DNA of 64,000 nt from Isoetes taiwanensis (taxonomy: Eukaryota > Streptophyta > Lycopodiopsida > Isoetales > Isoetaceae), in assembly GCA_021234155.1 (NCBI GenBank), contig JAJEKV010000036.1:9377426-9441425 (forward strand). Direction: 5' to 3'. The translations under genes were made by a program, and so were the position numbers. Below are positions 13,365 through 40,483 of the stretch, in pieces (position 1 is the stretch's first letter; every line of letters starts with the position of its first letter). The notes under the pieces are model-generated. The model saw only the letters and a list, made by a program, of their open reading frames with translations, had not been told where the DNA came from and did not search any database.

Positions 13365-13908
13365 GAAACAATGCTGTCCTCAGCATTGAGGTTAGATAGA
13401 AATATAATAAATGACAAGAAGGAAATTCCTTATTTCAGAAGATAATGTATTAAAACTTCAAAGTTTAAAACAGTTCAAGCACCGTGGTGCAGTTCACATG
13501 ATTATCATAAGCAACAAGTTCAAGGACCGAAGTCCAATATCGAAAAGCAGCGTAACACTAAAGAACTATGTGTAAACACCATGAAAACGGAGAAAGTTGG
13601 GTCATCAGCAACCCCCTATACATGGGCAGGTCACGTACTGCTCACTGGCCTGCACATGTCAATATATCAGTTTTCATAGATAAAAATAATTAGGTTGTGG
13701 TTGAAGGGTCCACCCCCTAGAAGAAATGAAAGAAAATTTATCTACAAGGAACCTATTATGCCTATGGTTCGCAATTCATTGCGGCGTAAAGGAAGTTCAT
13801 GCTTTTACGAAAGCGGTTCGTGGTCGTGTCCACATTGACAAGTACACCACGTCCTAAGGAACACGAAGGTGATCCCATCATCGGTAACTGTTGTTAACTA
13901 CGATGCAT
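13365..13908 (-). other. Gypsy 3' untranslated region
   Basis: Lies between the integrase stop and the PPT. It is repeated at 8305-8816, 29636-29826 and, inverted, at 9735-10122 and 29886-30422. It carries no open frame that is kept in all copies. Confidence 0.7.
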
Positions 13909-15471: not shown

Positions 15472-15505
15472 ACAATGTGGTTGCGGATGCATTGTCACGC
15501 CACCC
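15472..15505. repeat. 34-bp inverted segment at tandem junction 1
   Basis: ACAATGTGGTTGCGG...GCCACCC is the exact reverse complement of 20213-20246, the native sequence just inside the RNase H/integrase boundary. It joins the integrase N-terminus of copy 1 to AATCAAGTC of copy 2. The six bases ACAATG are shared with the native sequence on entry. Confidence 0.9.
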
Positions 15506-17044
15506 AATCAAGTCTTCAAGCTTACCGCCGGGAGCGGGGTTGATAGCATCGTTGATAGTGCGGCCTTGAGATTCGCGCATGAAATCCGGGTAGTGCTTCT
15601 CAAGATCTGTTTGCATCACCCACGTAGCATCCTCCACTGGCAAGTGTTTCCACTTGACCAAGTATTGTAGCATTTGAGTCCTCCTGGTCTGTTTATAAGC
15701 TCGATCAAGAAGAGCTTCAGGTACTATCTCTAGCTGCTCCTCTGTCATTTCCAGGAGGGTTGGGGTTTCCAAAACCTCCTCTGGATCAGGGGTGTGCTGT
15801 TTTAGAAGACTCACATGAAAAACCTTGTGGATCTTTAAGCGGGGTGGCAAGTCCAGGCGATATGCTTGCTCCCCAATACGTTCAGTGATTTTGAACGGCC
15901 CAGCCCATCTGGGTGCCAACTTCTTGCAATTACCAATCTTAAGCTTGGCTTGTTTTACCTTAATCTTAAGCCAAACCGATTCACCCACCTGGAAGACTCG
16001 TGAGGTCCTGTGCTTATCTGCTACACTCTTTTGACGACTGCGTGCAGCTAGCAAGTAACCACGTACTTCGTCGACCAAAGCTTGCATCTCCAGGAGGAGT
16101 TGTTGAGAAACCTCCACTTTCGACACGGGGTTGTGCCATGTGTCAGGAGTAAGGCATTGATAACCATAATTTATCATGAAAGGAGACATTCTGGAAGACT
16201 CCTGTTTCATACTGTTATAGGCAAACTCTACTAGATAAATATAGTCAGCCCATTGGGATTGCTTACTCCACACATAACTTCGTAGCATATCCTCTATGAT
16301 ACGGTTAGTACGCTCTGTCTGACCATCTGTCTGAGGATGATATGCGGTACTCATAGCAAGCTTGGTCTGGATGGTGGTGAAGAAATCCTTCCAGAATGCA
16401 CTTACAAATTTGGGATCTCTGTCAGATACAATAACCCGTGGCATTCCGTGCAACCTGAAGATCTCCTTTGCGAAAAGCAAGGCGGTGTCGAAGGCAGTGT
16501 CGGTGGTACGACATGGCAAGAAGTGAGCCATTTTTGACAATTTGTCGACGACCACCATTAGTGCATCATAGCCACGGAGAGTTCGTGGAAGGCCCACAAT
16601 GAAATCCATGGTTATTACTTCCCATTTTGCGTGGGGCACATCCAAAGGCTGCAGCTCTCCTGGAACTCTTAGTTGCTCCGCCTTGGTTTGCTGACACACT
16701 TGACACTGCTTAATGTATCTAGCAATATCCTTCTTCATGGAAGGCCAAAAGTAACTAGAGCGGATTTTAAAATAGGTCTTCATAAAACCCGCATGTCCAG
16801 CTATAGGGCTGTTGTGCGTGTCATGGAGGATTAACTTACGCACCCCGGAAGTCAGAGGTACACATAACTTATCCTTGTGATACAACAAATTGCCCTCTTT
16901 CTTATATGAACGGAAAGCTTCGCGTTCTTTATCTGTGCGTGCCTCCTTACTCAAACTAGCCCAGATTTGACAGAACTCGGGATCCGTGGCCAAGGTCTGT
17001 TCTATCTGTTTCCCAAACTCACTGGTGAGTGTAGAAATTGCATT
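15506..17044 (-). CDS. Gypsy integrase with chromodomain, tandem copy 2
   Basis: Nearly identical to copy 1 in domains and catalytic residues. The C-terminus is replaced: after GGKLEDLI it reads GWRDNASATTL and stops inside the junction at about 15470. The unit length of 1573 bp is not a multiple of three, so the copies cannot be read through as one polyprotein. Reading would have to start inside the junction (MGGVTMHPQPHCN), which is an accident of the inversion. Confidence 0.88.
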
Positions 17045-17078
17045 ACAATGTGGTTGCGGATGCATTGTCACGCCACCC
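17045..17078. repeat. 34-bp inverted segment at tandem junction 2
   Basis: Identical to the segment at 15472-15505, exactly 1573 bp later. Confidence 0.9.
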
Positions 17079-18617
17079 AATCAAGTCTTCAAGCTTACCG
17101 CCGGGAGCGGGGTTGATAGCATCGTTGATAGTGCGGCCTTGAGATTCGCGCATGAAATCCGGGTAGTGCTTCTCAAGATCTGTTTGCATCACCCACGTAG
17201 CATCCTCCACTGGCAAGTGTTTCCACTTGACCAAGTATTGTAGCATTTGAGTCCTCCTGGTCTGTTTATAAGCTCGATCAAGAAGAGCTTCAGGTACTAT
17301 CTCTAGCTGCTCCTCTGTCATTTCCAGGAGGGTTGGGGTTTCCAAAACCTCCTCTGGATCAGGGGTGTGCTGTTTTAGAAGACTCACATGAAAAACCTTG
17401 TGGATCTTTAAGCGGGGTGGCAAGTCCAGGCGATATGATTGCTCCCCAATACGTTCAGTGATTTTGAACAGCCCAGCCCATCTGGGTGCCAACTTCTTGC
17501 AATTACCAATCTTAAGCTTGGCTTGTTTTACCTTAATCTTAAGCCAAACCGATTCACCCACCTGGAAGACTCGTGAGGTCCTGTGCTTATCTGCTACACT
17601 CTTTTGACGACTGCGTGCAGCTAGCAAGTAACCACGTACTTCGTCGACCAAAGCTTGCATCTCCAGGAGGAGTTGTTGAGAAACCTCCACTTTCGACACG
17701 GGGTTGTGCCATGTGTCAAGAGTAAGGCATTGATAACCATAATTTATCATGAAAGGAGACATTCTGGAAGACTCCTGTTTCATACTGTTATAGGCAAACT
17801 CTACTAGATAAATATAGTCAGCCCATTGGGATTGCTTACTCCACACATAACTTCGTAGCATATCCTCTATGATACGGTTGGTACGCTCTGTCTGACCATC
17901 TGTCTGAGGATGATATGCGGTACTCATAGCAAGCTTGGTCTGGATGGTGGTGAAGAAATCCTTCCAGAATGCACTTACAAATTTGGGATCTCTGTCAGAT
18001 ACAATAACCCGGGGCATTCCGTGCAACCTGAAGATCTCCTTTGCGAAAAGCAAGGCGGTGTCGAAGGCAGTGTCGGTGGTACGACATGGCAAGAAGTGAG
18101 CCATTTTTGACAATTTGTCGACGACCACCATTAGTGCATCATAGCCACGGAGAGTTCGTGGAAGGCCCACAATGAAATCCATGGTTATTACTTCCCATTT
18201 TGCGTGGGGCACATCCAAAGGCTGCAGCTCTCCTGGAACTCTTAGTTGCTCCGCCTTGGTTTGCTGACACACTTGACACTGCTTAATGTATCTAGCAATA
18301 TCCTTCTTCATGGAAGGCCAAAAGTAACTAGAGCGGATTTTAAAATAGGTCTTCATAAAACCCGCATGTCCAGCTATAGGGCTGTTGTGCGTGTCATGGA
18401 GGATTAACTTACGCACCCCGGAAGTCAGAGGTACACATAACTTATCCTTGTGATACAACAAATTGCCCTCTTTCTTATATGAACGGAAAGCTTCGCGTTC
18501 TTTATCTGTGCGTGCCTCCTTACTCAAACTAGCCCAGATTTGACAGAACTCGGGATCCGTGGCCAAGGTCTGTTCTATCTGTTTCCCAAACTCACTGGTG
18601 AGTGTAGAAATTGCATT
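17079..18617 (-). CDS. Gypsy integrase with chromodomain, tandem copy 3
   Basis: Same architecture as copy 2. A few private changes are visible (RWAGLFKI for RWAGPFKI, GEQSYRL for GEQAYRL, CLTLDTW for CLTPDTW), so the copies are not bit-identical. The catalytic D, D and E and the zinc residues are retained. Confidence 0.88.
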
Positions 18618-18651
18618 ACAATGTGGTTGCGGATGCATTGTCACGCCACCC
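18618..18651. repeat. 34-bp inverted segment at tandem junction 3
   Basis: Same 34 bp as at 15472 and 17045, again spaced 1573 bp. Confidence 0.9.
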
Positions 18652-20433
18652 AATCAAGTCTTCAAGCTTACCGCCGGGAGCGGGGTTGATAGCATCGTTG
18701 ATAGTGCGGCCTTGAGATTCGCGCATGAAATCCGGGTAGTGCTTCTCAAGATCTGTTTGCATCACCCACGTAGCATCCTCCACTGGCAAGTGTTTCCACT
18801 TGACCAAGTATTGTAGCATTTGAGTCCTCCTGGTCTGTTTATAAGCTCGATCAAGAAGAGCTTCAGGTACTATCTCTAGCTGCTCCTCTGTCATTTCCAG
18901 GAGGGTTGGGGTTTCCAAAACCTCCTCTGGATCAGGGGTGTGCTGTTTTAGAAGACTCACATGAAAAACCTTGTGGATCTTTAAGCGGGGTGGCAAGTCC
19001 AGGCGATATGCTTGCTCCCCAATACGTTCAGTGATTTTGAACGGCCCAGCCCATCTGGGTGCCAACTTCTTGCAATTACCAATCTTAAGCTTGGCTTGTT
19101 TTACCTTAATCTTAAGCCAAACCGATTCACCCACCTGGAAGACTCGTGAGGTCCTGTGCTTATCTGCTACACTCTTTTGACGACTGCGTGCAGCTAGCAA
19201 GTAACCACGTACTTCATCGACCAAAGCTTGCATCTCCAGGAGGAGTTGTTGAGAAACCTCCACTTTCGACACGGGGTTGTGCCATGTGTCAGGAGTAAGG
19301 CATTGATAACCATAATTTATCATGAAAGGAGACATTCTGGAAGACTCCTGTTTCATACTGTTATAGGCAAACTCTACTAGATAAATATAGTCAGCCCATT
19401 GGGATTGCTTACTCCACACATAACTTCGTAGCATATCCTCTATGATACGGTTAGTACGCTCTGTCTGACCATCTGTCTGAGGATGATATGCGGTACTCAT
19501 AGCAAGCTTGGTCTGGATGGTGGTGAAGAAATCCTTCCAGAATGCACTTACAAATTTGGGATCTCTGTCAGATACAATAACCCGGGGCATTCCGTGCAAC
19601 CTGAAGATCTCCTTTGCGAAAAGCAAGGCGGTGTCGAAGGCAGTGTCGGTGGTACGACATGGCAAGAAGTGAGCCATTTTTGACAATTTGTCGACGACCA
19701 CCATTAGTGCATCATAGCCACGGAGAGTTCGTGGAAGGCCCACAATGAAATCCATGGTTATTACTTCCCATTTTGCGTGGGGCACATCCAAAGGCTGCAG
19801 CTCTCCTGGAACTCTTAGTTGCTCCGCCTTGGTTTGCTGACACACTTGACACTGCTTAATGTATCTAGCAATATCCTTCTTCATGGAAGGCCAAAAGTAA
19901 CTAGAGCGGATTTTAAAATAGGTCTTCATAAAACCCGCATGTCCAGCTATAGGGCTGTTGTGCGTGTCATGGAGGATTAACTTACGCACCCCGGAAGTCA
20001 GAGGTACACATAACTTATCCTTGTGATACAACAAATTGCCCTCTTTCTTATATGAATGGAAAGCTTCGCGTTCTTTATCTGTGCGTGCCTCCTTACTCAA
20101 ACTAGCCCAGATTTGACAGAACTCGGGATCCGTGGCCAAGGTCTGTTCTATCTGTTTCCCAAACTCACTGGTGAGTGTAGAAATTGCATTACAATGGGTT
20201 CGGGTTACCGAGGGGTGGCGTGACAATGCATCCGCAACCACATTGTGCTTTCCAGGCTTATACATGATGTCAAAATCATATTCTTCAAGAAATTCCATCC
20301 ATCTCCTCTGACGGAGGTTGAGGTTCGGTTGGGTGGATAAATAACGGAGACTTTGGTGATCCGTGTCCAACTGGAATCTTCTACCAAGGAGGTAGTGTCT
20401 CCATATTCGCAAGGCGCGAACAACAGCTAACAA
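18652..20433 (-). CDS. Gypsy RNase H end plus integrase/chromodomain, tandem copy 4
   Basis: This copy keeps the native upstream join. From 20433 the minus strand encodes the end of RNase H (LAVVRALRIWRHYL, LDTDHQSLRYL, RQRRWMEFLEEYDFDI, KHNVVADALSRHPS). The H-H-C-C zinc region, D-D-E core and chromodomain follow, ending in the aberrant GWRDNASATTL at the junction with copy 3. It is the only one of the four units placed to be made as part of pol, but it carries the altered C-terminus rather than RRESVEG. Confidence 0.9.
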
Positions 20434-21490
20434 CTCCTGATCATGGGTAGGATATCGCCGTTCGCCTCGCTCATCTTCTTTGAATCATAGGCAATAACCC
20501 TCCCTTCTTGCATCGGGGACTCCACCAAAGGGCAATTTGACTGGCATCTGTGGCCACTAGTTTATCCTTGTCAGGATCGGGCAACGTGAGAACGGGTGCT
20601 GACGTTAAGGCATCTTTAAGCTGCTGGAAATTTCCCTGAACCTTAGTCTTCCAGTGCTCCATCCAATCCTTCACCTTCTCATGCTTCGTAAGGTTTGTAA
20701 GAGGTGCTGCAATCCTTGCAAAATCCTTTACAAACTTTCGATAGTATCCTGCTAATCCCAAGAAACTTCGGACCTCGGAGACATTTTCTGGAATAGGCCA
20801 TTCCCTTACGGCCTCTATTTTTGCTGGATCTGTAGCAATTCCCTCTGCAGAAATGATATGGCCCAAATAGTCAACCTTTGGAGTGGCAAACTTGCACTTA
20901 GAGAACTTGGCAAAAAGCTGATGACGTCTTAACTTTTGTAGGGCCAATTTAAGATGTTTCTCATGCTCTTCTAGAGTCTTATCAGATGAGAATGTCGCCA
21001 AAGAAAATGACAACAAAATCATCCAAGTATTGTTGGAAAACATCGCTCATTAACCGCATAAACGCTTTGGGGGCATTAGTTAATCCAAAAGGCATAACGG
21101 TAAACTCATAATGGCCATATCTAGTGCGAAAAGCAGATTTATGGATGTCCTCCTCTTTAATCCTTATCCGATGATATCCCGAGAAGGTCAATCTTTGAAA
21201 AATATTTGGCCCCTTGCAACCGATCCATTAGATCATCTCGCTTCTCAAAGCAAAGCATAGCGATTTTTGATGGTATGCTTGTTGAGTTGCCGATAATCAA
21301 TACACATTCTCAAGGAGCCGCCCTTTTCTTTTACAAAAGAATAGGGGCACCAAAGGGCTAAACGCTAGGTCGAATAAAACCTAGGTTTAGTAGCTCTTGA
21401 AGTTGCTTCTTAAGCTCGCCAACTCGGGGACTCATACGGTGCACGGGCCTTGCTGGTAGGCTTAGTGCCCGGCTCTAAAGCTATCTCACA
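20434..21490 (-). pseudogene. Gypsy reverse transcriptase and RNase H start, frameshifted
   Basis: Minus-strand pieces: [18 protein letters not shown] (about 21250-21310), [21 protein letters not shown] with [16 protein letters not shown] (21060-21190), the catalytic box, then HLKLALQKLRRHQLFAKFSKC and VDYLGHIIS, ending in the RNase H start LVATDAS (about 20550). This is the Ty3/gypsy RT order. The catalytic box reads VVIFFGDIL where related elements have a DD pair, so one of the two metal-binding aspartates is Gly in this reading. Several frameshifts separate the pieces. This copy appears inactive unless the changes are sequence errors. Confidence 0.88.
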
Positions 21491-22040
21491 TTCTACCCCT
21501 CTAAAAGGAGGAAGCTTCGATCTCGTCCTGGGAAAAGATCGCTAAATTCATGGAGAATACCGGGCAATCCCCGTGGCAAGGTGTTGATTACTTGGTTTTG
21601 CTTAGCATCCGACTCAATGGAAGCAAGTCTAATAACGCAGAGGAGCTTTTGCTTATGTATAGCTTTATCTAACTGTCGAATGGACATAGACTGCATGATA
21701 GGGTTGAATGGTTCACCTTTTATAGTTACATCGGCTCCATTAGCTGCGTTGAAGGTAACTTCTCTCTTCTCGCAGCTATGTTGGCTTTTGCGGATGCCAA
21801 GAATTCCATTCCAACAATGAGGTCGATTTGCCAATATCCATTAACTCCGGCACCCATAGCAACCGGTGCGCCGGGTAACCGCATCTTAAGGTTGATGCGA
21901 CGACCATGAGTATGTCTAACCTTACCATCGGCTAAAGTGACGGTGTCTCTCGTCGTGACCTTAGGGTTTCCGGTTGTAGGACCCGGCCATTCTAGGAGAA
22001 GCAAAATTATGTGTACTCCCCAGATCCATAAGAATTACAA
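21491..22040 (-). pseudogene. Gypsy aspartic protease region
   Basis: Minus strand reads FVILMDLGSTHNFASP (about 22000-22045), then TVTLADGKVRHTHGRRI and LIVGMEFLASAKANI, the layout of a retroviral-type protease domain between Gag and RT. It cuts the polyprotein. The active-site triplet is D-L-G where D-S/T-G is expected. GAT CTG GGG would become D-S-G with TCG, a swap of the kind seen between paralogous copies in this window. Frame breaks occur at about 21740-21840. Confidence 0.75.
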
Positions 22041-23424
22041 AAGGCTTACTTGCCTATTTGGCCTATGGTGGAAATGACAAAGCCGACTTTCAGCATTGCC
22101 GTTTCTATAGCTGCAAGGATATGAGACGACCGTGAATGTACTCGGGAGCCGCCCTCGCCGCCAGTAATGTTGACTCAATATCGCCCGATCAAGGTCGGCC
22201 ATGGCCACCGTGGGCGATCTCGGGTAACATATGGGCAATTACGCATGAAGTGTCCAGCCTCATACACCTGTAACATGCCTAATCCCGGGCGCAAATGTTC
22301 TCCCTCGCCTCTTTAGGAATGGATATGTAAGAGGTTTTGAACTTCCTTACCAAAGATTGTTCTTACTTTATCCGGGCGTGCTAAAAGCGACTTTCTTCTC
22401 CTGGCGACCGTAAGAGTTCTGCTGAGAGGGCCCCGGACTTGGAGAGCGGGGTTTGTAAGGTGTGGACGGCCGTGGCTGCGAGTAAGGAGCAGGACGCGGA
22501 TACTGATTCCTTGGTATGTCCTCCTCGAGGCTCAATGCTTTAGCCTCGGCTTCTGCAACTGATTCCGGGTCGATGGCCTTAACCATCCGTTTGATCGATG
22601 GTGCCAAACCCTCAATATAGCCCTCCACTGCCCTTTTCTCATTCATACCAGGTACATACAGTCTCGGTAGCATAAACTCATCCGTAAGCTCAGACGGGAC
22701 ATACTCTTCTGCTCCAACCTGTAGAAAGTCTGGATCTGTTGGCATTTATGTGCACGAGGCACATAATGCGATTTGAAGGCCTTGGCAAACTTTCTGAAGT
22801 TGCATCTACTCCTGTCCAGATGTTTGGCTCTGGCATAGCCCTTCCACCAAATACGGGCAGCTCCGGTAAGGTTTGTGGTGGCAACCTTTCCTGTATCCTT
22901 CTCTGTCATGCCATAGGACCTGCCGAACTCCTTCATTTCGTCCAGCCAGGATTCGGCATTCAAGCCGCCTCTAGATTTCCCATCAAACTGGGCCAATTTC
23001 CTATTCTTCCATATACTAGTTATGGCTGTATCAACTGCCTCGGCGGTACTCCTTATCTCGGCTTTTGCATGGCCACCGATGATCACGGATGATTCGGATG
23101 ACACCGGGTGGCGGACTTTGAGGAGGTGGCACTTGTCTCTAGAGGAGCTCCGGCCGGGCGTTTAGAGTGGGACCTCTTTCGCGACGTGCACGGGACCGGT
23201 TCGTGGGTGGGGACGACCGCTTTGTCGCGTGGTGGACTAGGCGGCAAAGGTGGTAACTCCGGTGCATCCTGTTGTACATGCTGTGGTGGGTTAGCATGCA
23301 AGACGTAGGCCTGTAATTCGCCTAACTGTCTTTTCATCAGCATCAATTCTTGTTCGGGTGTTAACCGACTGGCGTTTGAGGGTGTCTGCCAGGCGGCATT
23401 GCGTGCACCGTCTATATTAAACAT
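22041..23424 (-). pseudogene. Gypsy Gag (capsid and zinc knuckle), frameshifted
   Basis: From 23424 the minus strand encodes MFNIDGARNAAWQTP and a LTPEQELMLMKRQLGELQ helix, a Pro-rich linker, then WLDEMKEFGRSYGMTEKDT and ARIWWKGYARAKHLD (23104-22800), the usual retrotransposon capsid block. Next come EYVPSELTDEFMLPRLYVPGM and a Pro/Ser/Arg-rich tail (22745-22368). Near 22220-22290 a CYRC half and a YEAGHFMRNC half together make a CCHC zinc knuckle, but in two frames. Gag packages the RNA. At least three frameshifts are present. Confidence 0.85.
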
Positions 23425-23630: not shown

Positions 23631-24139
23631 CTAGCCATAGTGAAGCATAGGAACACACAAAACTGGAAATTGCGGCTTAAGGGTTTGCGTAGGGATACAT
23701 GACGGCATAGCGCACACGACCTCACGCACAGCTCTGACGAGCTTGTAACGTGCCCAAGCCTGGATAATAACGGGTTGATAATCCCAAGTGGGGCTAATAA
23801 TCAGAAGGTTGAAGAGCCTTCGCAGTGCGTAGAAGATTTGCCAGAGATGATCATTAGCATCCTCAAAAGCTTGATGTGGGGTCATATTCCAATAATCCCA
23901 AGTACGGGAAAGAGTCCATTTCAGATCATCGTAAGCACGTTCTCGAAGAAGAGTAACTACTTCCATGCCCTTGTCAGGATCATAAGGTTGTTCCGGCACC
24001 CTAAGCTCCGCTATCTCATCGTCAACTTCCCGTTCAGGATACTCGTTGTATCGTTCCCCATAGTCCTGTTCAGGAGGTCCCTGTTCATCTCTCCTTATCT
24101 GGGATATTATCCTATCTTCGTACTCCGCGAGTGTTTCTT
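23631..24139 (-). CDS. ORF C, unknown protein upstream of gag
   Basis: Open on the minus strand from an apparent splice acceptor (CGTCTTGCAG, ending at 24140) through EETLAEYEDRIISQIRRDEQ, an acidic stretch, then PYDPDKGMEVVTLLRERAYDD and a tryptophan-rich helical segment (LKWTLSRTWDYWN, LWQIFYALRRLF), to the stop at 23631; about 169 residues. I do not recognise it. It lies between ORF B and gag in the sense direction of the element. The second element copy has it at 34932-35475 with similar sequence, so it belongs to the element rather than to one insertion. An ATG within it (about 23999) could also be the start. Confidence 0.55.
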
Positions 24140-24384
24140 CTGCAAGACGACAGGAATAATTATATATACATTGAACAATTTCCTTCTACTCCAACTTTAA
24201 GGAAGATAATTAATCATTAAAAGGAGAAGACAATTCAATGGTTTTCAACAGTGCAAGGAACATAAGAAGTTATCCTGAATATATATAAAATTGAAACAGT
24301 ACATAGATTTTAGTGTTGGCCCACTAGAGGTAATGCCAATCAAGATTAATAAAATTTCATACGATGACCCAATGAAACCTAAAA
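24140..24384 (-). other. Intron-like stretch between ORF B and ORF C
   Basis: On the minus strand it is T-rich, contains TATATATA, and ends TTCCTGTCGTCTTGCAG next to an open frame, as plant introns do. I see no clear GT donor in ORF B before its stop; GTATGA shortly after the stop is one candidate. The second copy (about 35477-35720) is nearly the same. Confidence 0.4.
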
Positions 24385-25800
24385 CTAAGAGGTCGATCCT
24401 TCAACATCTTGTGCTTGAGTATTAAACTGGGGCTCTGGTCGATGCTGTAGGAGTAGCACGCTAGGATTAACTGATGAGGCAGCTGATGAAGCTATCTCTG
24501 GAGGAACATTTGTAGCCAATGGCGCCGCAACCAGCAGACTCATGTTCATCCAAGAACCAATCTCATGGTCAAACACTGCAATGGCAAGATCACGGTTCAC
24601 TAGGATGATCTGCTCAAGGTTAGGAGCTAACTTCTTGTGGCCGGCTGTGGTGGAAAGTGCCCTTAATGCCCATACAGCCGCCTCTGCTTCAGGGGCAATT
24701 GCCTTAGCAAAGAAGAGAACCTGTCTGCTTGTAAAAGCCGACAGGAAGAATCGAGTAATATGGCATTTCAACCCCTGAACCATCGGATGGGTTGAAGAGG
24801 CCAACTCGGACTCCAAGTTCCGGGGCAGCTCCTCCTCCATGGCAAAATCCTTCTCCTCCTGAGCATACTGACTCTCATCACATAAATCCTCCATGGTCGG
24901 GTCGTCCTCCAGCTTGACGACGACGTCGTTGATGTTGGGCACATGTGGCCCCGTAGCCTGGAAAGCCGATTCAGGAACTGAAGATGGGGTACCCTGAATC
25001 ATTAACTGGCGCAAAGACAAGAGTGTGCTGATAGGCTCAACATCAAGAGGTTGATAGTTGAGCAGTTGATGTATCTCTGGCGCATAATTGGGGCGAGAGT
25101 AATCAATGAAATCATGCTGACCCTGACAATATTCGGCCAGCTCATAGAGAAGGTGAGCGGTTCTCTGCTTACCCTTATTGGCGATATCTTGTCGATACGC
25201 CCATTGAATGTCGCCGGCAGCAAGTAATCCCCGATCCCCAACCTTGATGGTAGCAAGCGAACTCAATCCCACAAGTGCTTGGCCCTTACTACGAGGTAAA
25301 GGCCTCTCTTTAGCTAACTCCTTCCATCGTACAAAATCAGCAAAGTTTATCTGCTCGTCCTCCTCTGGATCTGGAGGAAGTGGGGCCTTAGCTTGCTCTA
25401 AAGCGGTGTCAGTACCATCAACATACCTGTCCATAATAAGAGCAAGGGCAAACTGGGCTTCAAAGTATAGCCCATTAGAGCCACAATCGATAATGGGAGC
25501 GTGCTTAGCACGTCTGATGATGCCCTTGAGGATGTCATAGCTGTGGCGATCATCTCCCAACATATGCTCCACAATATCTCTGTGAAGATAAGGTTGGGGC
25601 GGTTCCCCAAAGAATTCCGCCTCAGGCAATATTTCCTCATCATAGAACTCTACAAAGGTCGCATAGTCAGGGTGGGCGCGCATATTGTCGATGAGGTCGA
25701 CTGAACTCTGCAACATATAATCCAAGAGAGGGTAAGGAACCTGGGGGTCCCATTGCTCGCCTCCCATATACCATGCTAGTCGGCCAGCGTAGTCCATCAC
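24385..25800 (-). CDS. ORF B, 471-residue protein of unknown function in the gypsy element
   Basis: One uninterrupted minus-strand frame from ATG 25800 (MMDYAGRLAWYMGGEQ) to stop 24385, the longest non-pol frame of the element. It is predicted to be mainly helical and soluble, without signal peptide or membrane segment. The middle has a hydrophobic patch followed by acids (VVVKLEDDPTMEDL), which resembles a SUMO-interaction motif, then an acidic run. The C-terminal third is Ala/Leu-rich (AVWALRALSTTAGHKKL), like an armadillo-type helix hairpin. None of this is diagnostic and I recognise no family. A plant-like 5' leader (AGGGTTTCATCATTTC) precedes it. The second copy (35735-36660 plus 46265-46741) is split by the CACTA-like insert. 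It may be captured host coding sequence. Confidence 0.7.
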   Translation of the reverse strand: MMDYAGRLAWYMGGEQWDPQVPYPLLDYMLQSSVDLIDNMRAHPDYATFVEFYDEEILPEAEFFGEPPQPYLHRDIVEHMLGDDRHSYDILKGIIRRAKHAPIIDCGSNGLYFEAQFALALIMDRYVDGTDTALEQAKAPLPPDPEEDEQINFADFVRWKELAKERPLPRSKGQALVGLSSLATIKVGDRGLLAAGDIQWAYRQDIANKGKQRTAHLLYELAEYCQGQHDFIDYSRPNYAPEIHQLLNYQPLDVEPISTLLSLRQLMIQGTPSSVPESAFQATGPHVPNINDVVVKLEDDPTMEDLCDESQYAQEEKDFAMEEELPRNLESELASSTHPMVQGLKCHITRFFLSAFTSRQVLFFAKAIAPEAEAAVWALRALSTTAGHKKLAPNLEQIILVNRDLAIAVFDHEIGSWMNMSLLVAAPLATNVPPEIASSAASSVNPSVLLLQHRPEPQFNTQAQDVEGSTS

Positions 25801-25915
25801 TGCAGGCGGAAGATGGGAGGAAGAAGGAAACAGGAGTAAGAAATGATGAAACCCTAAAATGAATCTGAGTCTTTAACTTGCTGGGCACGGCGTTCGAGGC
25901 GCCAGCTCATCATCA

Positions 25916-26044: not shown

Positions 26045-26379
26045 TTATGACCGTTCCCCACGGATCCGGCGTGCCAACTGTAGGTCTTTTGTCATGATGG
26101 TTACTCGCTTGGCATGGATGGCACATAGGTTTGCATCGCCAAAGAGGGCCACCAAGTAAGCCTCGGCCGCCTCCTGAAGTGCTAGAATGGCATGAGTTTG
26201 AAAACGAAGGTCCGTCTTAAATTCTTGGGCAATCTCTCGGACCAGACGCTGGAAAGGAAGTTTTCGTAACAGAAACTCAGTGGATTTCTGGTACTTCCTT
26301 ATCTCTCGAAGTGCCACGGTACCAGGCTTGTAACGATGCCTCCTCCTAGGTTGGGGTGCAGCTCCGGGTAGAGTCTTCC
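26045..26379 (-). CDS. Histone H3.3-like domain inside the gypsy element
   Basis: The minus-strand frame gives a full H3 fold from [20 protein letters not shown] through [34 protein letters not shown] and [13 protein letters not shown] to ARRIRGERS and TAA at 26045, matching H3 residues 39-135 without gaps. By H3 numbering, Tyr41, His87 and Leu90 are the residues that mark land-plant H3.3 against H3.1. About 12 of 97 core positions differ from plant H3.3 (for example R42K, L60F, I62L, D77E, S86T, V89I, G102A, E105G, T107A, P121T, I124L, A135S). K56, K64, K79, K115 and K122 remain. The tail before residue 39 is not H3: no ARTKQTARKS or KAPRKQL, only a short basic linker (PQPRRR). The frame continues 5' towards a coiled coil and ORF A. 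Histone H3 packages DNA as (H3-H4)2; as retroelement cargo its role is unknown. Confidence 0.93.
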
Positions 26380-26433
26380 CTGCTGTTCCGGGATGCCGGG
26401 CTTTACGGATGATGTTGTCCCGCCGGTTATCCC

Positions 26434-26724
26434 CTATGAGACCTTAGCGATTCCTCCTCGAGCCCTAAAAGCGATCCTTATCTTTTTGAGCACCGGATCT
26501 TTGGGGTGTCTTCTTTTGTCTTGGCGAAACACGGACTTCTGCGGTGGTTGCTCTTGCCGATGCCTTTCTTCCTCTTCCTTCCTCAGCCGCTCCTTCACGG
26601 CTTCGGTTGCCTCTCTTGCTCTCTGCTCTGCTTCGTCCTGCATTCTCTTCAGATTTTGCTCTTGTTCTACCTGCTGCTGATGGATAGTATCCTCACGAAG
26701 CTTGGCAGCCCTCCTCCCGATCAA
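26434..26724 (-). CDS. Coiled-coil segment between ORF A and the H3 domain
   Basis: Minus strand: [20 protein letters not shown], then a continuous Gln/Glu/Lys/Arg-rich stretch ([20 protein letters not shown]) with heptad-like spacing, then a basic part ([11 protein letters not shown]). It is in a different frame from ORF A in this copy, but both copies of the element show the same order, so one original frame through ORF A, coiled coil, linker and H3 is likely. Stops near 26434 and 26420-26430 break the link to H3 here. Confidence 0.65.
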
Positions 26725-26734
26725 CTGTGTTGCC

Positions 26735-27400
26735 TTACGTTTTGGCGGTGTGGCTTGCTCCTTTGCTTGCTTCTCTTTGGCTATTCTGATCTCCGTTCTT
26801 CTTGTAAGCTCTATGAAGTAACGTGGGGATTAGCTTGCATATCTCGCTCAACGATCCATTTGAAAGTGATGCGTGAAAATCTGAGGGTGATCCAGCTTCC
26901 CGCAGGATACGGTTGGTCTCCTCTTCATATGAAAACGATGGGAGAGTGTAGGCTCCCCCATCAAAGAGGCACATGCCGTTTCCCAGGTAGCGGTATCCCG
27001 AAGCCGGATCATCCGATGCTAGCCACTGTAGGTCCGCCTCTTGGGCCATTTGCAAACTGTTTTGGGCCTGCGTTTGTAGGGCCTCCTCCTCAACTTGTTC
27101 ATCCCCTGCTGGCGGGAAGAATCGAGCATACTTCTGGACGCCATCTTCCTGTTCAACTACCATGCAGGTCTCCCGAATGGCGTTGAGCTTAAATAAAAAA
27201 ACGCCATTATAGCAAAAGAGCGGTATGGTATTCCTGACCCCTTCAGAGAAGCGCTTCCTAAATATTCCAAAGATTTCTTCAGTTTTTGCTTGTGCGTCTG
27301 GCGCGGGGTTTTGTTGTGGCAGCAGCTCAGCCATTAAGAACTCTATAGGGGTTTGAGAATGACGAGGTTTGCGCTTATACACTTGCTTGGGTGTCTCCAT
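26735..27400 (-). CDS. ORF A, N-terminal part of a putative H3-fusion protein
   Basis: Starts METPKQVYKRKPRHSQTPIE at 27400 and runs 221 residues. Compared with the second copy (47670-48338), a short block after TEEI and the C-terminus after ETNRILREAGSPS are read in other frames, so this copy has small indels. The shared core includes KLNAIRETCMVVEQEDGVQK, YARFFPPAGDEQ and GYRYLGNGMCLFDGGAY. I recognise no domain. The basic start could be a nuclear-targeting signal (inference). It is the first frame after the leader and so the one most easily translated from the element RNA. Confidence 0.65.
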   Translation of the reverse strand: METPKQVYKRKPRHSQTPIEFLMAELLPQQNPAPDAQAKTEEIFGIFRKRFSEGVRNTIPLFCYNGVFLFKLNAIRETCMVVEQEDGVQKYARFFPPAGDEQVEEEALQTQAQNSLQMAQEADLQWLASDDPASGYRYLGNGMCLFDGGAYTLPSFSYEEETNRILREAGSPSDFHASLSNGSLSEICKLIPTLLHRAYKKNGDQNSQREASKGASHTAKT

Positions 27401-27980: not shown

Positions 27981-27992
27981 GCTCTGATACCA
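27981..27992 (-). promoter_or_regulatory. Primer-binding site (initiator Met tRNA) of gypsy copy 1
   Basis: TGGTATCAGAGC on the minus strand, one base after the LTR end (27994). It is complementary to the 3' end of plant initiator tRNA-Met, the standard primer for these elements. Confidence 0.92.
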
Positions 27993-27993: not shown

Positions 27994-29621
27994 TGTGACG
28001 CTCCCTGAACATATACGACCCTCGGACGTATACATACGGGACTTTCCCTCCCATGGCGACCAACTTCGCCATGAGCGGGGCCCCTCCGTCTATTTCGGGC
28101 CATCTATAATCGATGCCCGAAAGAAGGACACGAAGGGGTCATTCGGCCCACGCCTTCAATGGGGCTCCTACGTCGCGGAAGCGTGAATACAAGGGTTAGC
28201 ACACAACATAAATCACATATAAATAACCACCACGAAGGGTGGCATATCCATCCAAATACCAACGGCAAAGAATATGCATCTGAACCTAAGAAAACACCCC
28301 AAACCCATGGTTCTACCCCCTGTTCGACTCCGGTGAGGATCGACCGACGGCTAGGCCTCAAGAGATCAGCGCATTGAAATCTTGACATGGCGTTGGCTGG
28401 CATAGAACATTGGCTAGGGTTGTCCACTCCATCCGCCCCTCCTGTGCACACTTTGCAGATGGGTCAATTCACGCTATGGCGTCGCTATAGCCTTCCGGAG
28501 ACGCAGGCTCGAGGCATCACCCTGCTGAGCCTACTCCAGGGTTCATGAAGCCCCGGTCCGATGAGGCAGGTCGTGGCGTCCCCTTCCGAATCACAGTGGC
28601 TCCATGGGCGAGCTAGAGAATACGTGCCGCATCAGCGACCCCCGCATCCGTACCCGACTTACTCACCCTAAATCTACTCAAAGTGCAAGGTGCCCCATAC
28701 GGGTCACACCTTCCCACCCAGGGAGTGTCAGACCCATACCCGGCCCTCTACGTGGACCTATCGGGGTCCTCATCGCTCACAGGAGTCCCAGGAGCCTTTT
28801 ATGTTCGTGCAAGACCCCACCTCCACTTCACCACTTGTGTTCCTTGTGCGGTGCTAAGCCCGGTACCATAGCATCTATGACCCGGTGGGCTCTTGTGCAC
28901 GTCGCGCATTTAACGGGATAATCTGAGGGCTCTATCTAGGAGCATACCACAATAAATAGCCTCAGAGGTCTCTACCCCCCTTAATCCCCCATTTCCAGAG
29001 TAACCCTAGGCTAACAACCACCAATCCATCCATTACAAGCAGAACCAGAATCGAAATATATATAGAGAGAACCTACCTTTACAATCAAGGGTTAGTTCCT
29101 ACGAGTAAACACAAAGAGAATAGATCAACAACTCCAAACAAAGCCCAACAGGGCTTATCCTAGAATTCACAACTACACTAGCCACCCACCTGTGTTTCGG
29201 CTCGACCCATTGTCATTGGGGATCTCCATCTTCTTGATCTTGGTGTTCAACTTGTGTAAGAAGGGTGGCGTCCAATTGCTCAAGGTGGCGCCACATTTCA
29301 CAAGGGTGGCTCCCAACGCCCCGTGTGAGTTGTGGCTGATATGGGGGTGGTGATCCACCCTATTGACCCCAATTAGCATTATCATGCTAGCCAATCGAGG
29401 GTGGCCACGTGGCGCCTTCCCAAACCATAATTAGCTTAATTATGGTTTTTAAAATATTAGTTCCTTAATTAGGTTATTATTGTCAATAATTAAATTAGCA
29501 TAGCTAATTTAATTCCTTTTAAGTGAACCACCTAGGTTCCCATACCCCATGTGGCGTATGTATCCTTGGTGACGTGTCGACATATTTATACTTATACCGT
29601 ATAAATACTTGGAACGTCACA
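27994..29621 (-). repeat. Gypsy LTR copy 4, shared between the two internal regions
   Basis: Complete, 1628 bp, TGTGACGCTCC to GGAACGTCACA. It is the 5' LTR of the 13351-27993 element and is followed on its other side by a PPT and 3' UTR, so it also serves as the 3' end of a second unit. Confidence 0.93.
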
Positions 29622-30436
29622 TTCTCCCCTCCTTAGAAACAATGCTGTCCTCAGCATTGAGGTTAGATAGAAATATAATAAATGACAAGAAGGAAATTCC
29701 TTATTTCAGAAGATAATGTATTAAAACTTCAAAGTTTAAAACAGTTCAAGCACCGTGGTGCAGTTCACATGATTATCATAAGCAACAAGTTCAAGGACCG
29801 AAGTCCAATATCGAAAAGCAGCGTAACCCCGCTCCCGGCGGTAAGCTTGAAGACTTGATTCGCCGAGAATCAGTAGAGGGGTAGATGCATCGTAGTTAAC
29901 AACAGTTACCGATGATGGGATCACCTTCGTGTTCCTTAGGACGTGGTGTACTGTCAATGTGGACACGACCACGAACTGCTCGTAAAGCATGAACTTCCTT
30001 ACGCCGCAATGAATTGCGAACCATAGGCATAATAGGTTCCTTGTAGATAAATTTTCTTTCATTTCTTCTAGGGGGTGGACCCTTCAACCACAACCTAATT
30101 ATTTTTATCTATGAAAACTGATATATTGACATGTGCAGGCCAGTGAGCAGTACGTGACCTGCCCATGTATAGGGGGTTGCTGATGACCCGACTTTCTCCG
30201 TTTTCATGGTGTTTACACATAGTTCTTTAGTGTTACTGCTTTTTTCGATATTGGACTTGGGTCCTTGAACTTGTTGCTTATGATAATCATGTGAACTCGC
30301 ACCACTTGCTTGAAATGTTTTAAACTTTGAAGTTTTAATACATTATCTTACAAATAAGGAATTTCCTTCTTGTCATTTATTATATTTCTATCTAACCTCA
30401 ATGCTGAGGACAGCATTGTTTCTAAGGAGGGGAGAA
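29622..30436. repeat. Palindromic 3' UTR junction between LTR copies 4 and 5
   Basis: PPT and 3' UTR in minus orientation (29622-29826) switch at 29827 to the plus-strand integrase end (GGKLEDLIRRESVEG, 29834-29884), 3' UTR and PPT (30423-30436). It is a snap-back like that at 9731-9735 but with a different breakpoint. Confidence 0.85.
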
Positions 30437-32013
30437 TGTGACGTTCCAAGTATTTATACGGTATAAGTATAAATATGTCGACACGTCACCAAGGATACAT
30501 ACGCCACATGGGGTATGGCAACCTAGGTGGTTCACTTAAAAGGAATTAAATTAGCTATTATTGACAATAATAACCTATAATTAAGGAACTAATATTTTAA
30601 AAACCATAATTAAGCTAATTATGGTTTGGGAAGGCGCCACGTGGCCACCCTCGATTGGCTAGCATGATAATGCTAATTGGGGTCAATAGGGTGGATCACC
30701 ACCCCCATATCAGCCACAACTCACTGAGCAGGGAGCCACCCTTGTGACCGTGAGTGAGCGCCACCTTGAGCAATTGGACGCCACCCTTCTTACACAAGTT
30801 GAACACCAAGATCAAGAAGATGGAGATCCCCAATGACAAATGAGTCGTGGCTCACACGTGGATGGCTAGTGTAGTTGTGAATTCTAGGATAAGCGCCCCT
30901 GTTGGGCACCCTGCTTGGGTTGTTGATCTATTCTCTTTGTGTTTACTGAGGAACTAACCCTTGATTGTAAAGGTAGGTTCTCTCTATATATTTTAGATTC
31001 CGGTTACGCTTGTAATGGATGGATTGGTGGTTGTTAGCCTAGGGTTACTCGAAATGGGGATTAAGGGGGTAGAGACCTCTGGAGCTATTTATTGTGGTAT
31101 GCTCCTAGATAGAGCCCCGATTATCCCGCGAAATGCGACGGTGTACAAAGCCCACCGGGTCATAGATGCTATGGTAATCGCTTAGCACCGCATAAGGAAC
31201 ACAAATGGTGAAGTGGAGGTGGGGTCTTGCACTAACATAAAAGGCTCTGACTCCCTCAGGCGCAGCTAGACCTTGATAGCCGGTCACGTAGAGGGCCGTA
31301 TGGGTCCGACACTCCTGGGTGGGAAGGTGTGACCCGTATGGGGCACCTTTGCACTATGAGTAGATTTAGGGTGAGTAAGTCGGGTCACGATTCGGGGTCA
31401 TCTGGCCGCGCATTCTCTCTTCGCCCATGGAGCCACCGCGATTCCGGGAAGGGGACGCTTCCCCTGCCTCATGTCTGACGGGGCTTCATGAACCCCGAGT
31501 AGGCTCAGCAGGGTGATGCCTCGAGCACAGGCCATCTCCCGAAGGCTATAGCGACGCCATAGCGTGAATTGACCCATCCGCAAAAGTGTGCACAGGGGGG
31601 GATGGAGTGGACAACCCTAGCCAATGTTCTATGCCAGCCAACGCCATGTCAAGATACCCTGCGCTGCTGATCTCTTGAGGCCTAGCCGCTGCCGATCCTC
31701 ACTGGAGTCTGAACCGGGTAGAACCATGGGTTTGGGGTGTTTTCTTGGGTTCAGATGCATATTCTTTGCCGCTGGTATTTGATGGATATGCCACCCTTCG
31801 TGGTGGTTATTTATATGTGATTTATGCCGTGGTGCTAACCCCTTGTATTCACGCCCAGCGACGTAGGAGCCCCATTGAAGGCGTGGGCGAATGACCTCAG
31901 TGTCCTTCTTTCGGCATCGTATTATAGATGGCCCGGGCCAGACGGAGGGTTCTGCCGCATGGCGCAGTTGGTCGCCATGGGAGGGAAAAGTCCCCATGTA
32001 TACGCCCCGAGGG
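30437..32013 (+). repeat. Gypsy LTR copy 5, inverted
   Basis: TGTGACGTTCCAAG start after a PPT; it lacks the last ~24 bp. It is more divergent than other copies, with many changes at CAG/CTG/CCG sites. Confidence 0.88.
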
Positions 32014-32060
32014 TTGTAGCATTTGAGTCCTCCCCGGTCCGCTTATAAGCTCGATACCAC
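32014..32060. other. Junction scrap: integrase fragment fused to PBS remnant
   Basis: TGTAGCATTTGAGTCCTCC...TTATAAGCTCGAT matches the chromodomain-coding stretch (14094-14134), then GATACCAC as in the PBS, then LTR copy 6. It marks a breakpoint. Confidence 0.7.
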
Positions 32061-33691
32061 CGTGGACGCTCCCGAACATATACGACCCTCTGGACGATAC
32101 ATACGGGGACTTTCCCTCCCATGGCGACCAACTCGCCATGAGCAGGGCTCCCTCCGCCTATTTCGGCCATCTATAATACGATGCCCGAAAGAAGGACACG
32201 GGGGTCATTCGCCCACGCCTTCAATGGGGCTCCTACGCCGCGAAGCGCGAATACAAGGGTTAGCACACAAAGATAAATCACATATAAATAACCACCAATG
32301 AAGGGTGGCATATCCATCCAAATACCAACGGCAAAGAATATGCATCTGAACCTAAGAAAACACCCCAAACCCATGGTTCTATCCCGGTTCAGACTCCAGT
32401 GAGGATCGACTGACGGCTAGGCCTCAAGAGATCAGCAGACAGAATCTTGACATGGCGTTGGCTGGCATAGAACATTGGCTAGGGTTGTCCACTCCATCCG
32501 CCCCTCCCGCACACTTTGCGGATGGGTCAATTCACGCTATGGCGCCGCTATAGCCTTCCTGAGACGCAGGGCTCGAGGCATCACCGCCGGAGCCTACTCC
32601 AGGGTTCATGAAGCCCCGGTCCGATGAGGCAGGTCAGGGAAGCGTCCCCTTCCAGAATCACAGTGGCTCCATGGGCGAGCTAGAGAATACGTGCCGCATC
32701 AGCGACCCCCGCATCCGTACCCGACTTACTCACCCTAAATCTACTCAAAGTGCAAGGTGCCCCATACGGGTCACACCTTCCCACCCAGGGAGTGTCAGAC
32801 CCATACCCGCCCCCACGTGACCGGGCTATCGTGGTCCTAGCTTCGCTCTGAGAGTCCTGTGAGCCTTTTATGTTCGTGCAAGACCCCACCTCCACTTCAC
32901 CACTGTGTTCCTTGTCTGGTGCTAAGCCAGTACCATAGCATCTATGACCCGGTGGGCTCTTGTGCACAGGCCGCATTTAACGGGATAATACAGGGCTCTA
33001 TCTAGGAGCATACCACAATAAATAGCCTCAGAGGTCTCTACCCCCCTTAATCCCCCATTTCCAGAGTAACCCTAGGCTAACAACCACCAATCCATCCATT
33101 ACAAGCAGAACCAGAATCGAAATATATATAGAGAGAACCTACCTTTACAATCAAGGGTTAGTTCCTACGAGTAAACACAAAGAGAATAGATCAACAACCC
33201 AAACAGTGCCCAACAGGGCTTATCCTAGAATTCACAACTACACTAGCCACCCACGTGTTTTCGCCGACCCATTGTCATTGGGGATCTCCATCTTCTTGAT
33301 CTTGGTGTTCAACTTGTGTAAGAAGGGTGGCGTCCAATTGCTCAAGGTGGCGCTTCGACTCTAGTCACAAGGGTGGCTCCCACTTTGCCCCTGTGAGTTG
33401 TGGCTGATATGGGGGTGGTGATCCACCCTATTGACCCCAATTAGCATTATCATGCTAGCCAATCGAGGGTGGCCACGTGGCGCCTTCCCAAACCATAATT
33501 AGCTTAATTATGGTTTTTAAAATATTAGTTCCTTAATTATAGGTTATTATTGTCAATAATTAAATTAGCATAGCTAATTTAATTCCTTTTAAGTGAACCA
33601 CCTAGGTTCCCATACCCCATGTGGCGTATGTATCCTTGGTGACGTGTCGACATATTTATACTTATACCGTATAAATACTTGGAACGTCACA
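32061..33691 (-). repeat. Gypsy LTR copy 6
   Basis: About 1.63 kb, complete at the GGAACGTCACA end, but joined directly to gag (TTCACCAGCATTG...GCGTGCTAAAAGC). PPT, 3' UTR and all of pol are missing, so the second element is internally deleted. Confidence 0.9.
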
Positions 33692-34770
33692 TTCACCAGC
33701 ATTGTTCTGCTTATCTGGCGTGCTAAAAGCGACTTTCTTCTCCTGGCGACCGTAAGAGTTCTGCTGAGAGGGCCCCGGACTTGGAGAGCGGGGTTTGTAA
33801 GGTGTGGACGGCCGTGGCTGCGAGTAAGGAGCAGGACGCGGATACTGATTCCTTGGTATGTCCTCCTCGAGGCTCAATGCTTTAGCCTCGGCTTCTGCAA
33901 CTGATTTCGGGTCGATGGCCTTAACCATCCGTTTGATCGATGGTGCCAAACCCTCAATATAGCCCTCCACCGCCCTTTTCTCATTCATACCGGTACATAC
34001 GGTCCTCGGTAGCATAAACTCATCCGTGTAAGCTCATGCGGACATACTCTTACTGCTCCAACTTTGTAGAAAGTGCGGATCTGTTGGCATTTATGTGCCC
34101 GCGAGGCACATAATGCGATTTGAAGGCCTTGGCAAACTTTCTGAAGTTGCATCTACTCCTGTCCGGATGTTTGGCTCGGCATAGCCCTTCCACCAAATAC
34201 GGGCAGCTCGGTAAGGTTTGTGGTGGCAACCTTTCTGTATCCTTCTCTGTCATGCCATAGGACCCCGAACTCCTTCATTTAGTCCGGCCGGGGATTCGGC
34301 ATTCAAGCGCCTCTAGATTTCCCATCAAAGCGGGCCAATTTCCTATTCTTCCATATACTAGTTATGGTCAGTATCAAGCGTCTTGCGGTACTCCTTATCT
34401 CGGCTTTGCATGGCCACGGATGATCGCGGATGATTCGGATGACACCTGAAGTGGCGGACTTTGAGGAGGTGGCCTTTGTCTCTAGAGGAGCTCCGTCGGC
34501 GTTTAGAGTGGGACCTCTTTCGCCGCGCATGCAGGACTGGTTCGTGGTGGGGGCGGCCGTGCCGGTGGACTAAGCGACAGGGAGGTAACTCCGGTGCATC
34601 TGTTGTACATCTTTGTGGTGGGTTAGCATGCAAGGCGTAGGCACGTAATTAAGCCTAACTGTCTTTTCATCGGCATCAATTCTTGTTGGTGTTAACCGAC
34701 CCGGCGTTTGAGGGTGTCTGCGCCAGGCGGCATTGCGTGCACGTCTATATTAACCATCACGATGATATAA
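33692..34770 (-). pseudogene. Gag of gypsy copy 2, heavily frameshifted
   Basis: Parallels 22375-23440: the Pro/Ser/Arg tail with EEDIPRNQYPRPAPYSQ is well kept, and the capsid block is recognisable (TSIWKNRKLARFDGKSRG) but broken by many small indels. Everything 3' of gag is deleted. Confidence 0.85.
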
Positions 34771-36660: not shown

Positions 36661-36829
36661 CACACTCACCCCGGTTTTTGGTCCACTGTTGAAAACATCA
36701 GTTTTGGTAGGTCTACATGTCCTGTTTTCAAAGAATCCTACATGTGGATTTGTGAAGGTATGGTTTTGTTCGATAATGGTGTTCTTTTTTCAGTGGACTA
36801 AAACATCCACTGTTGTTTTGTAGTTTCTT

Positions 36830-37330
36830 CTATTGTGACATGTCATTTTATAATACAATCCACTGTAGGAAAGAGTACTTGAATTTCTACATGTCTAATA
36901 ATTCTATTGTCACATGTCTTTATAGATGTAGGAAAGAATATTTGATTCTCTACATGTCCTATACTTCCATTCACATGTCTTTATAGTAGTAGGGCCAGTA
37001 CTTTATTTGCTAAGGCATTGTAGGAAAGAATACATGAATTACGACATGTGTAATACTTCTATTGTCACATGTCTTTATAGAAGTCGGGAAAAGAATACTT
37101 GATTCTCTACATGTCATATGCTTCCATGTCACATGTCTTTATAGTAGTAGACAGTAGTACTTTATTTGCTAAGGCATTGTAGGAAAGAATACATGAATTA
37201 CGACATGTGTAATACTTCTATTCTCACATGTCTTTATAGAAGTAGGAAAAGAGTACTTGATTCTCTACATGTCCTATCCTTCCATATCACGGGTCTTTAT
37301 AGTGGTAGGACAGAGTAGTTGATTTGCTAC
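36830..37330. repeat. Left subterminal repeats of the CACTA-like element
   Basis: CACATGTCTTTATAG and TACATGTCC recur every 60-80 bp; a larger unit (TAAGGCATTGTAGGAAAGAATACATG) repeats at 37011 and 37170 (159-bp period). ACATGTC also appears near the right end (about 45720-45810). Subterminal arrays are transposase-binding regions in CACTA elements. Confidence 0.7.
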
Positions 37331-37436
37331 ATGTGATGCGTGCGATCACATGTTCTTATACTAGTATTCCATGTAACACAAGTTACTTCAACTACTTCAA
37401 TTACTTAACACCTATTTTTTTTGCATAACGTGGGCA

Positions 37437-39165: not shown

Positions 39166-39251
39166 CTTGGATGTCTTTGCAAACACCGGGGCGAGGCACC
39201 TCGGCCCCCCTTTCTTGTGAAGGGGAGTCTCCGAAGGTATATATCTTTGGC

Positions 39252-40445: not shown

Positions 40446-40483
40446 GTTCCACGGCCCTCTTGATCGAGAGGAGCATCCCGAAT

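Follow-up and report, generated by a model that had tools for sequence, protein, structure and literature searches.

A chromodomain Ty3/gypsy retrotransposon family of Isoetes taiwanensis encodes a histone H3 core at the end of a larger protein upstream of gag

Histone H3 genes have been found in hAT DNA transposons of the fungi Pyrenophora tritici-repentis, Pseudocercospora fijiensis and their relatives, where, according to the available portions of the two reports, the element carries and multiplies the gene in tens to hundreds of copies (PMC3538342, PMC6710886). The same portions describe near-identical young copies in P. tritici-repentis, with ESTs for the histone (H3L), mention of a chimeric transcript and a second ORF of unknown function in the element; in P. 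fijiensis, a transcript of the captured H3 is reported and every copy of the element has been killed by RIP (PMC3538342, PMC6710886). Single H3s are also encoded by DNA viruses, such as Dishui Lake phycodnavirus and Manila clam xenomavirus. In the available part of the source, these are accompanied by no other histones, have a core 73-87% identical to that of the host, often retain host lysines in the tail and, in three cases out of six, show an N-terminal extension of 35-68 aa (PMC9145170). The bracovirus histone CvBV-H4, described in the same part, has an extended N-terminus, enters host nucleosomes and changes expression through the extension (PMC9145170). Among LTR retrotransposons, Ogre and other elements carry extra ORFs, as stated in the available part of a paper on giant transposons, in which the word histone has no occurrence (PMC6431247).

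The element described here resembles the fungal ones in that an H3 gene is carried and multiplied by a mobile element. Unlike the hAT-borne genes, which reside in DNA transposons with inverted ends and hAT domains (PMC3538342, PMC6710886, available portions), it lies in an LTR retrotransposon, having LTRs, gag and pol in place of terminal inverted repeats and a hAT transposase; its H3 is fused to a conserved domain and has been under long-term purifying selection in a mobile lineage. With the viral single H3s it has Ile89 in common (SAIL or TAIL in the viruses, HAIL or FAIL here), and it differs from them in the tail and in the 314-362 aa, including a separate domain, that precede the core (PMC9145170, available part). 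Nor is it encoded by a DNA virus: its neighbours are gag, RT and integrase, and a search of viral_contigs gave 23 H3 pattern matches with no H3 relative among them, and none for ORF B. CvBV-H4 is an H4 and not an H3, a polydnavirus virulence gene with an extension of 38 aa (PMC9145170, available part); by analogy, it may nevertheless be the best guide to how the protein acts. The initial annotation knew of no LTR retrotransposon described with an H3 gene. This stands for retroelements, as no histone in an LTR retrotransposon was found in the open-licence literature searched, which does not prove absence elsewhere; for mobile elements and viruses at large, precedents exist in the fungal hAT elements and the viral single H3s (PMC6710886, PMC3538342 and PMC9145170, in their available parts). 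Relative to the mobile-element and virus histones already known, the novelty lies in the carrier, which is a retroelement, in the fusion of H3 to other protein parts, in the scale and in the selection.

The window, a stretch of 64,000 nucleotides of the I. taiwanensis genome, contains on its minus strand an H3 core (residues 39-135) at 26048-26338, made of 97 codons without a gap and followed by a stop codon at 26045-26047. A gap-free core open to its stop had been annotated initially, and was confirmed by a Pfam match (Histone, E 2e-43) and by a phmmer search of the PDB, where the best solved-structure chain is a histone H3.3 (E 3.4e-53); both matches are far beyond chance. Tyr41, His87 and Leu90 are all found in this core. 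No in-frame ATG precedes it and, in the ORF list, the reading frame leading to it, ORF A, is interrupted twice between its ATG and H3. Ahead of the core, on the same strand, lie the end portion of an element-specific basic tail (26339-26443), kept in genomic copies, a frame covering linker and tail (26434-26829, from the ORF list) and an N-terminal domain (26735-27400, ATG at 27400-27398), which begins with METPKQVYKRKPRHS (METPKQ..). The linker and tail frame is out of frame with H3 in the window copy, unlike the open genomic copies, in which the two form one continuous frame. Since in these copies H3 ends a protein of 411-459 aa, the unit is ORF A and not a short histone. Two readings were rejected: a window stretch that resembled H4 by eye, suggesting an H4-H3 doublet, reads as a conserved basic tail in open copies and is no longer taken for H4, and the long A-run behind the window H3, taken as a possible poly(A) trace of mRNA capture, is not fixed in other copies and thus gives no proof of capture from mRNA.

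These frames belong to an element, E2, whose 5' LTR is located at 27994-29621 (minus strand), as defined from LTR copies in the window, with the ends TGTGACG..CGTCACA and a purine tract in front. One base to the inside of the LTR, direct inspection located the primer binding site TGGTATCAGAGC (27981-27992, minus strand), which we take to be of the iMet type; the 12-mer recurs in 8 of 11 other loci checked. Directly downstream of H3 is ORF B, of 470 aa (24385-25797), followed by a third pre-gag frame, pregag2 (23631-24185), by the gag capsid region (22643-23161; Pfam Retrotrans_gag, 7.1e-08) and, in broken frames, by RT, RNase H, integrase and chromodomain (18616-21227; Pfam RVT_1, RT_RNaseH, Integrase_H2C2, rve and Chromo, with rve just below the Pfam cut-off), all on the minus strand. 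LTRs, primer binding site, gag, the order RT-RNase H-integrase and a chromodomain placed after the integrase are the features of a Ty3/gypsy chromovirus. A Pfam search confined to three broken frames of the window copy (21496-22745) gave no aspartic protease match at E <= 0.01. The positions of LTR, primer binding site and gag bear out the initial placement of H3 on the coding strand of a gypsy element, between 5' LTR and gag. The presence of extra ORFs upstream of gag (ORF A, ORF B and pregag2) is a likeness to Ogre and Tat elements. Ogre belongs to the Tat group, which has no chromodomain, unlike the element in the window (Pfam Chromo, 5.8e-09).

Other copies were sought in an assembly of 1,658,258,908 bases in 1110 contigs. 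The available part of the genome paper describes an assembly of 1658.30 Mb that comprises 204 scaffolds together with 909 unplaced contigs and was obtained from Nanopore reads with polishing by racon and pilon, and the word 'histone' does not occur in its main text (PMC8566536). The Pfam Histone search yielded 8,705 first-look candidates, compared with 31 for a control of similar length, ribosomal S11, and 7,034 and 11,085 were obtained with ORF B and gag; these totals are loose counts, which on a plain reading place the number of H3-bearing stretches in the thousands. Scoring of 150 histone candidates separated 15 that looked canonical by profile cover from 135 that did not. All eight of the former that were read (8/15) are canonical host H3, and all 40 that were read of the latter (40/135) are element-type H3. 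These 40 H3-picked copies, which come from the best Pfam scores among the 8,705 candidates, fall into family I, similar to the window copy (8), family II (31) and family III (1).

The neighbours of H3 are consistent among copies. In 20 long loci, the ORF A N-domain is present before H3 in 19, and H3 is followed by ORF B in 18, pregag2 in 15 and gag in 17; 19 of the loci contain an LTR-like match. When ORF B was used as bait instead of H3, H3 was found just upstream in 16 of 20 loci, the anchors being the first 20 rows starting at residue 1 with H3 not already in the H3-picked set; if the 10 rows passed over because their H3 belongs to that set are included, the count becomes 26 of the first 30 rows starting at residue 1. 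With gag as bait, 6 of 10 loci showed H3 at the distance expected, several of these H3 hits being cut by the slice or damaged; these anchors were taken from the upper part of 150 rows, leaving out loci with H3 in the H3-picked set. Both kinds of anchor are high matches to the window copy. The slices devoid of H3 are short and correspond to L053, L058, L060 and L061 for ORF B (4/20) and to L073, L075, L077 and L078 for gag (4/10), the L077 slice containing ORF B. Whether selected by H3, by ORF B or by gag, other members of the family do carry the H3 block. A high-copy chromodomain Ty3/gypsy family encodes, between 5' LTR and gag, the ORF A fusion of N-domain, linker, basic tail and complete H3 core.

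Of the 41 element ORFs, 23 contain H3 within an uninterrupted frame of 425 aa or longer, a set thus selected on H3 score and on the openness of the frame. Measured from the probable ATG, 22 of them have the length given above and L046, which starts late, has 334 aa, and L044 extends beyond the usual stop. Along the protein, an N-domain of about 200 residues is followed by a charged or glutamine-rich linker, by a basic tail, which extends over some 58 residues and can be recognised in each of the three families, and by H3. An AF2 model of a family II ORF A (20 rows) predicts an alpha/beta domain plus a long helix at residues 10-225 (pLDDT about 56-89), with low values elsewhere, and low confidence for the H3 part (about 38-53). 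The model found no match at E <= 0.001 in fold searches of PDB and BFVD, neither Pfam nor PDB yielded a relative for the N-domain, and the whole of ORF A gave nothing over the cut-offs of NCBIfam. Similarly, ORF B has no relative in Pfam or PDB (mean pLDDT of its model, 36), pregag2 matches no Pfam family over the cut-off, and neither plasmids nor Rfam gave any match. The N-domain and ORF B, having no match among the families and structures searched, may be new chromatin factors.

Element and host H3 were compared by position in 40 of 41 cores, namely the H3-picked ones and that of the window, leaving out L014, which is cut short, and with no ORF B or gag picks. The core is complete and H3-specific in sequence, and in a tree it adjoins host and reference H3s, remaining separate from them. 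CenH3s are distinguished by a longer loop 1 and a strongly diverged core; here, in contrast, the 97 columns align to canonical H3 without a gap, and at 58 of them every one of the 40 full cores has the host residue. Changes shared by all 40 are T107 to Ala, E105 to Ser or Gly and S86 to Ala or Thr, with Phe or His at position 87; V89 is replaced by Ile in 35/40, and the patch 87-90 reads HAIL or FAIL in 35/40, versus SAVL or TAVL in the host. The surrounding part of alpha2 guides chaperone choice, according to the available part of the source (PMC9145170). The initial label 'H3.3-type' is weak, although the window copy has the three residues: Y41 and L90 are found also in ordinary host H3 (8/8 host genes read), and Y41 is present in 20/40 element cores and H87 in 9/40, the other two subfamilies having F87, so that the Y41, H87 and L90 set that distinguishes plant H3.3 from H3.1 is not a family trait.

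In the element protein the ordinary 38-aa H3 tail is replaced rather than truncated. The ARKS motif, present in 8/8 host genes read, is absent from 41/41 element copies, and position 36 is Arg in 39/41, including the window copy, and Lys in 2/41. The initial statement that the tail with K4, K9 and K27 is absent is correct as to ARKS and needs amendment as to K27, since 41/41 copies retain, near that position, a lysine flanked as [AG]K[ST]. With reference to lists of contact residues, 9/10 H3-H3 contacts are invariant in the 40 cores, the other showing one private change, as are 15/22 DNA contacts. Eight contact residues are changed: 40, 49, 63 and 127 vary in one copy only, 41, 42 and 64 show Y/F, R/K and K/R swaps, and every core has Ala or Thr in place of S86. 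Because the H3-H3 contacts are all but invariant and the DNA contacts mostly kept, the protein is likely to be incorporated into nucleosomes together with host H4; Y41F, K64R and the changes at 101-107 could alter the pairing with H4.

The element probably uses its H3 protein to act on plant chromatin. The explanation that accounts best for the whole, put at about an even chance, is that of a selfish histone variant which enters nucleosomes and makes the chromatin of the element harder to silence. ORF A would pair with host H4 and be built into nucleosomes, either at the element's own chromatin or at targets, where it would display the N-domain, for which any role is a guess. Host H3 would thereby be replaced by a form without the ARKS sites (K9/K27) and mostly without K36, and element chromatin would become harder to silence. 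The anti-silencing or targeting role proposed initially is plausible as a hypothesis, and the lysine kept near K27 does not fit a simple device for avoiding K27 modification. Host silencing of transposons acts largely via modifications of the H3 tail. If the selfish variant is real, an element-borne H3 in which the silenced tail is replaced would be a direct counter-move at the nucleosome level, and one protein would then suffice to study the arms race of transposons and chromatin by experiment. In addition, natural H3 variants shaped by selection for a foreign interest show which H3 residues the nucleosome can spare.

A different use of the same nucleosomes would be integration targeting, in which they mark or open sites and the chromodomain integrase, or the pre-integration complex, is drawn there by a putative attraction of the N-domain. 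The presence of a chromodomain integrase in the same element, the constraint on the N-domain and the nesting of insertions in other elements within the window all agree with it; nesting in repeats is, however, commonly seen without any histone, and this use is considered possible but unlikely. ORF A might also work off the nucleosome, as a decoy sequestering H4, H3 chaperones or silencing enzymes. The chaperone patch 86-90 is altered in the 40 full cores and the [AG]K[ST] lysine is a constant of the tail, as such a decoy might have it, but the DNA-contact residues, of which a pure decoy needs none, are largely invariant and otherwise mostly subject to conservative or private changes, which leaves this role quite improbable. 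Finally, ORF A and host histones could coat the element cDNA as a nucleoprotein, in the particle or en route to the nucleus. The location of ORF A ahead of gag, in the orientation of the element, and its basic tail are compatible with packing, and histones of giant viruses form nucleosome-like particles, according to the available part of the source (PMC11500106); however, only H3 is seen, and a lone H3 makes no nucleosome unless host H4 is in the particle; packing is judged about as improbable as the decoy.

Selection was evaluated on the open copies and on loci found independently of H3. In the 23 open ORF A, the H3 core has a median dN/dS far below 1, with 0.020 for family I and 0.038 for family II; corresponding values are 0.134 and 0.098 for the N-domain, 0.123 and 0.228 for the linker and 0.120 and 0.166 for the tail, and ORF B, likewise constrained, gave 0.103 (15 pairs) and 0.074 (one pair). 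Within families pS is 0.33-0.45, and between families synonymous differences approach or exceed saturation, with pN only 0.08-0.13. A comparison of shared and private variants was carried out on 12 full, distinct H3 cores of ORF B-anchored loci, without building an ancestral sequence; it derives from 16 H3 blocks, four of which (L055, L056, L059 and L067) were dropped for frameshift, gap or partial cover. This set is the cleaner one, since the H3-picked copies were selected on H3 score. Variants present in at least two copies are 53 synonymous and 3 nonsynonymous, versus 22 and 15, with one stop, for those private to one copy (Fisher p 6.8e-5). Synonymous to nonsynonymous counts are 71:6 shared and 26:18 private for all family I, 37:3 and 30:4 for the family I top picks alone, and 98:19 and 38:18 for the family II top picks.

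The contrast between 53:3 and 22:15 is the mark expected of a gene on which the spreading element depends, while copies, once inserted, decay: purifying selection acts on the spreading lineage. Many single copies are indeed broken (both window copies, and others with a private stop, arginine losses or frameshifts), as would be the case for a captured H3 fragment hitchhiking without function. Such a passenger is scarcely credible in view of dN/dS values of 0.02-0.04 reached despite the within-family pS, and of the shared variants; it is refuted for the family and true only of individual dead copies. The central initial claim, of an LTR retrotransposon with an H3 gene of its own, has strong support, as both refutation tests set with it failed to refute it: other copies have the block, and dN/dS is not near 1. 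An assembly artefact or contamination, to which the clustered indels of the window copies, typical of a polished long-read assembly, might have pointed, is refuted, with next to no probability left, because element-type H3 is spread over many contigs with consistent neighbours.

In a protein tree of 37 cores, 30 element rows lie on one side of a branch with support 99/98; this branch recurs in 98% of the 200 bootstrap replicates, which had not settled, and the tree is unrooted. Element H3s from all three subfamilies cluster together, separately from host H3; this one group, along with the common tail and N-domain, argues for a single capture, old enough for saturation and followed by a split into families. 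In the window copy, the gag backbone has had a history of its own. Compared with the family II locus L009, the window copy has a pS of 0.12 in gag and of 0.79 in ORF B; L010 and L014 resemble L009 (gag pS 0.14 and 0.29), whereas the remaining family II loci give gag pS of 0.42-0.80, and the window copy and L012, both of family I, differ by 0.47 in ORF B and 0.57 in gag. The contrast between gag and ORF B shows that the 5' block of that copy does not share the history of its gag, the block having presumably been swapped between lineages. In its fullest form, the preferred reading would make this family the first among retroelements to bring a nucleosomal histone of its own, in the form of a selfish H3 variant joined to a new domain, long kept under selection, with synonymous sites saturated between subfamilies, which writes its own chromatin state and whose ORF A-ORF B block is swapped between backbones like a weapon cassette; the probability assigned to this is a little short of one half.

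A second H3 copy in the window (about 46981-47278, minus strand; tblastn and alignment) is damaged by indels, which are many and clustered in comparison with the first. It belongs to an outer element, E1 (6738-50534, minus strand), which contains nested insertions and lacks most of pol. Comparison of its flanks revealed a 5-bp target-site duplication, AGAGG, at 6733-6737 and 50535-50539, and a copia-like element interrupted by E1 (4499-6395 and 50540-53426), whose frame is continuous once the flanks are joined over the empty site. The copia LTRs differ at 1/453 positions and E1, inserted later, should therefore be young. Its own LTRs are at odds with this, differing at 13/1015 columns away from gaps, compared with 22/751 for E2; because these differences cluster at indels, they are tentatively put down to uneven polishing. 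Around H3, E1 and E2 differ at 11/1487 columns away from gaps. E1 is in turn interrupted, within gag, by the region holding E2, and also by an approximately 9.6-kb DNA transposon (36661-46261), presumably CACTA-like, with inverted ends CACACTCACCCCGG and CACACTGACCCCGA and CTT(C) repeated at the site; this transposon contains 19-bp minisatellites.

Other features of the window were recorded. Four tandem units of 1573 bp, about 99.6% identical and derived from the integrase-chromodomain region, occupy 13933-20203, and reflect either a genuine tandem expansion within the element or an error of assembly. LTR palindromes, arranged head-to-head with 88-89% identity, are located at 9730-13750 and 30431-33697, with centres near 11740 and 32060. 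At 25797-25900, and upstream of ORF B in L049-L068, a TTTAAA-like box and an AGGGTTT telo-box lie at a near-fixed distance from ORF B, AGGGTTT being present in 18/20 ORF B-anchored loci; that the block is ORF B's own promoter is only suggestive, and in family I, where a pyrimidine tract and CAG precede the ORF B ATG, a splice acceptor would also fit. An ORF of tyrosine-recombinase type, in a plant genome, is found at 60541-61773 (minus strand; Pfam Phage_integrase, 6e-08) and is possibly part of a Crypton-like element, and a RING-finger ORF at 192-527 (plus strand; Pfam zf-C3HC4_3, 2.2e-13) is probably a host gene fragment.
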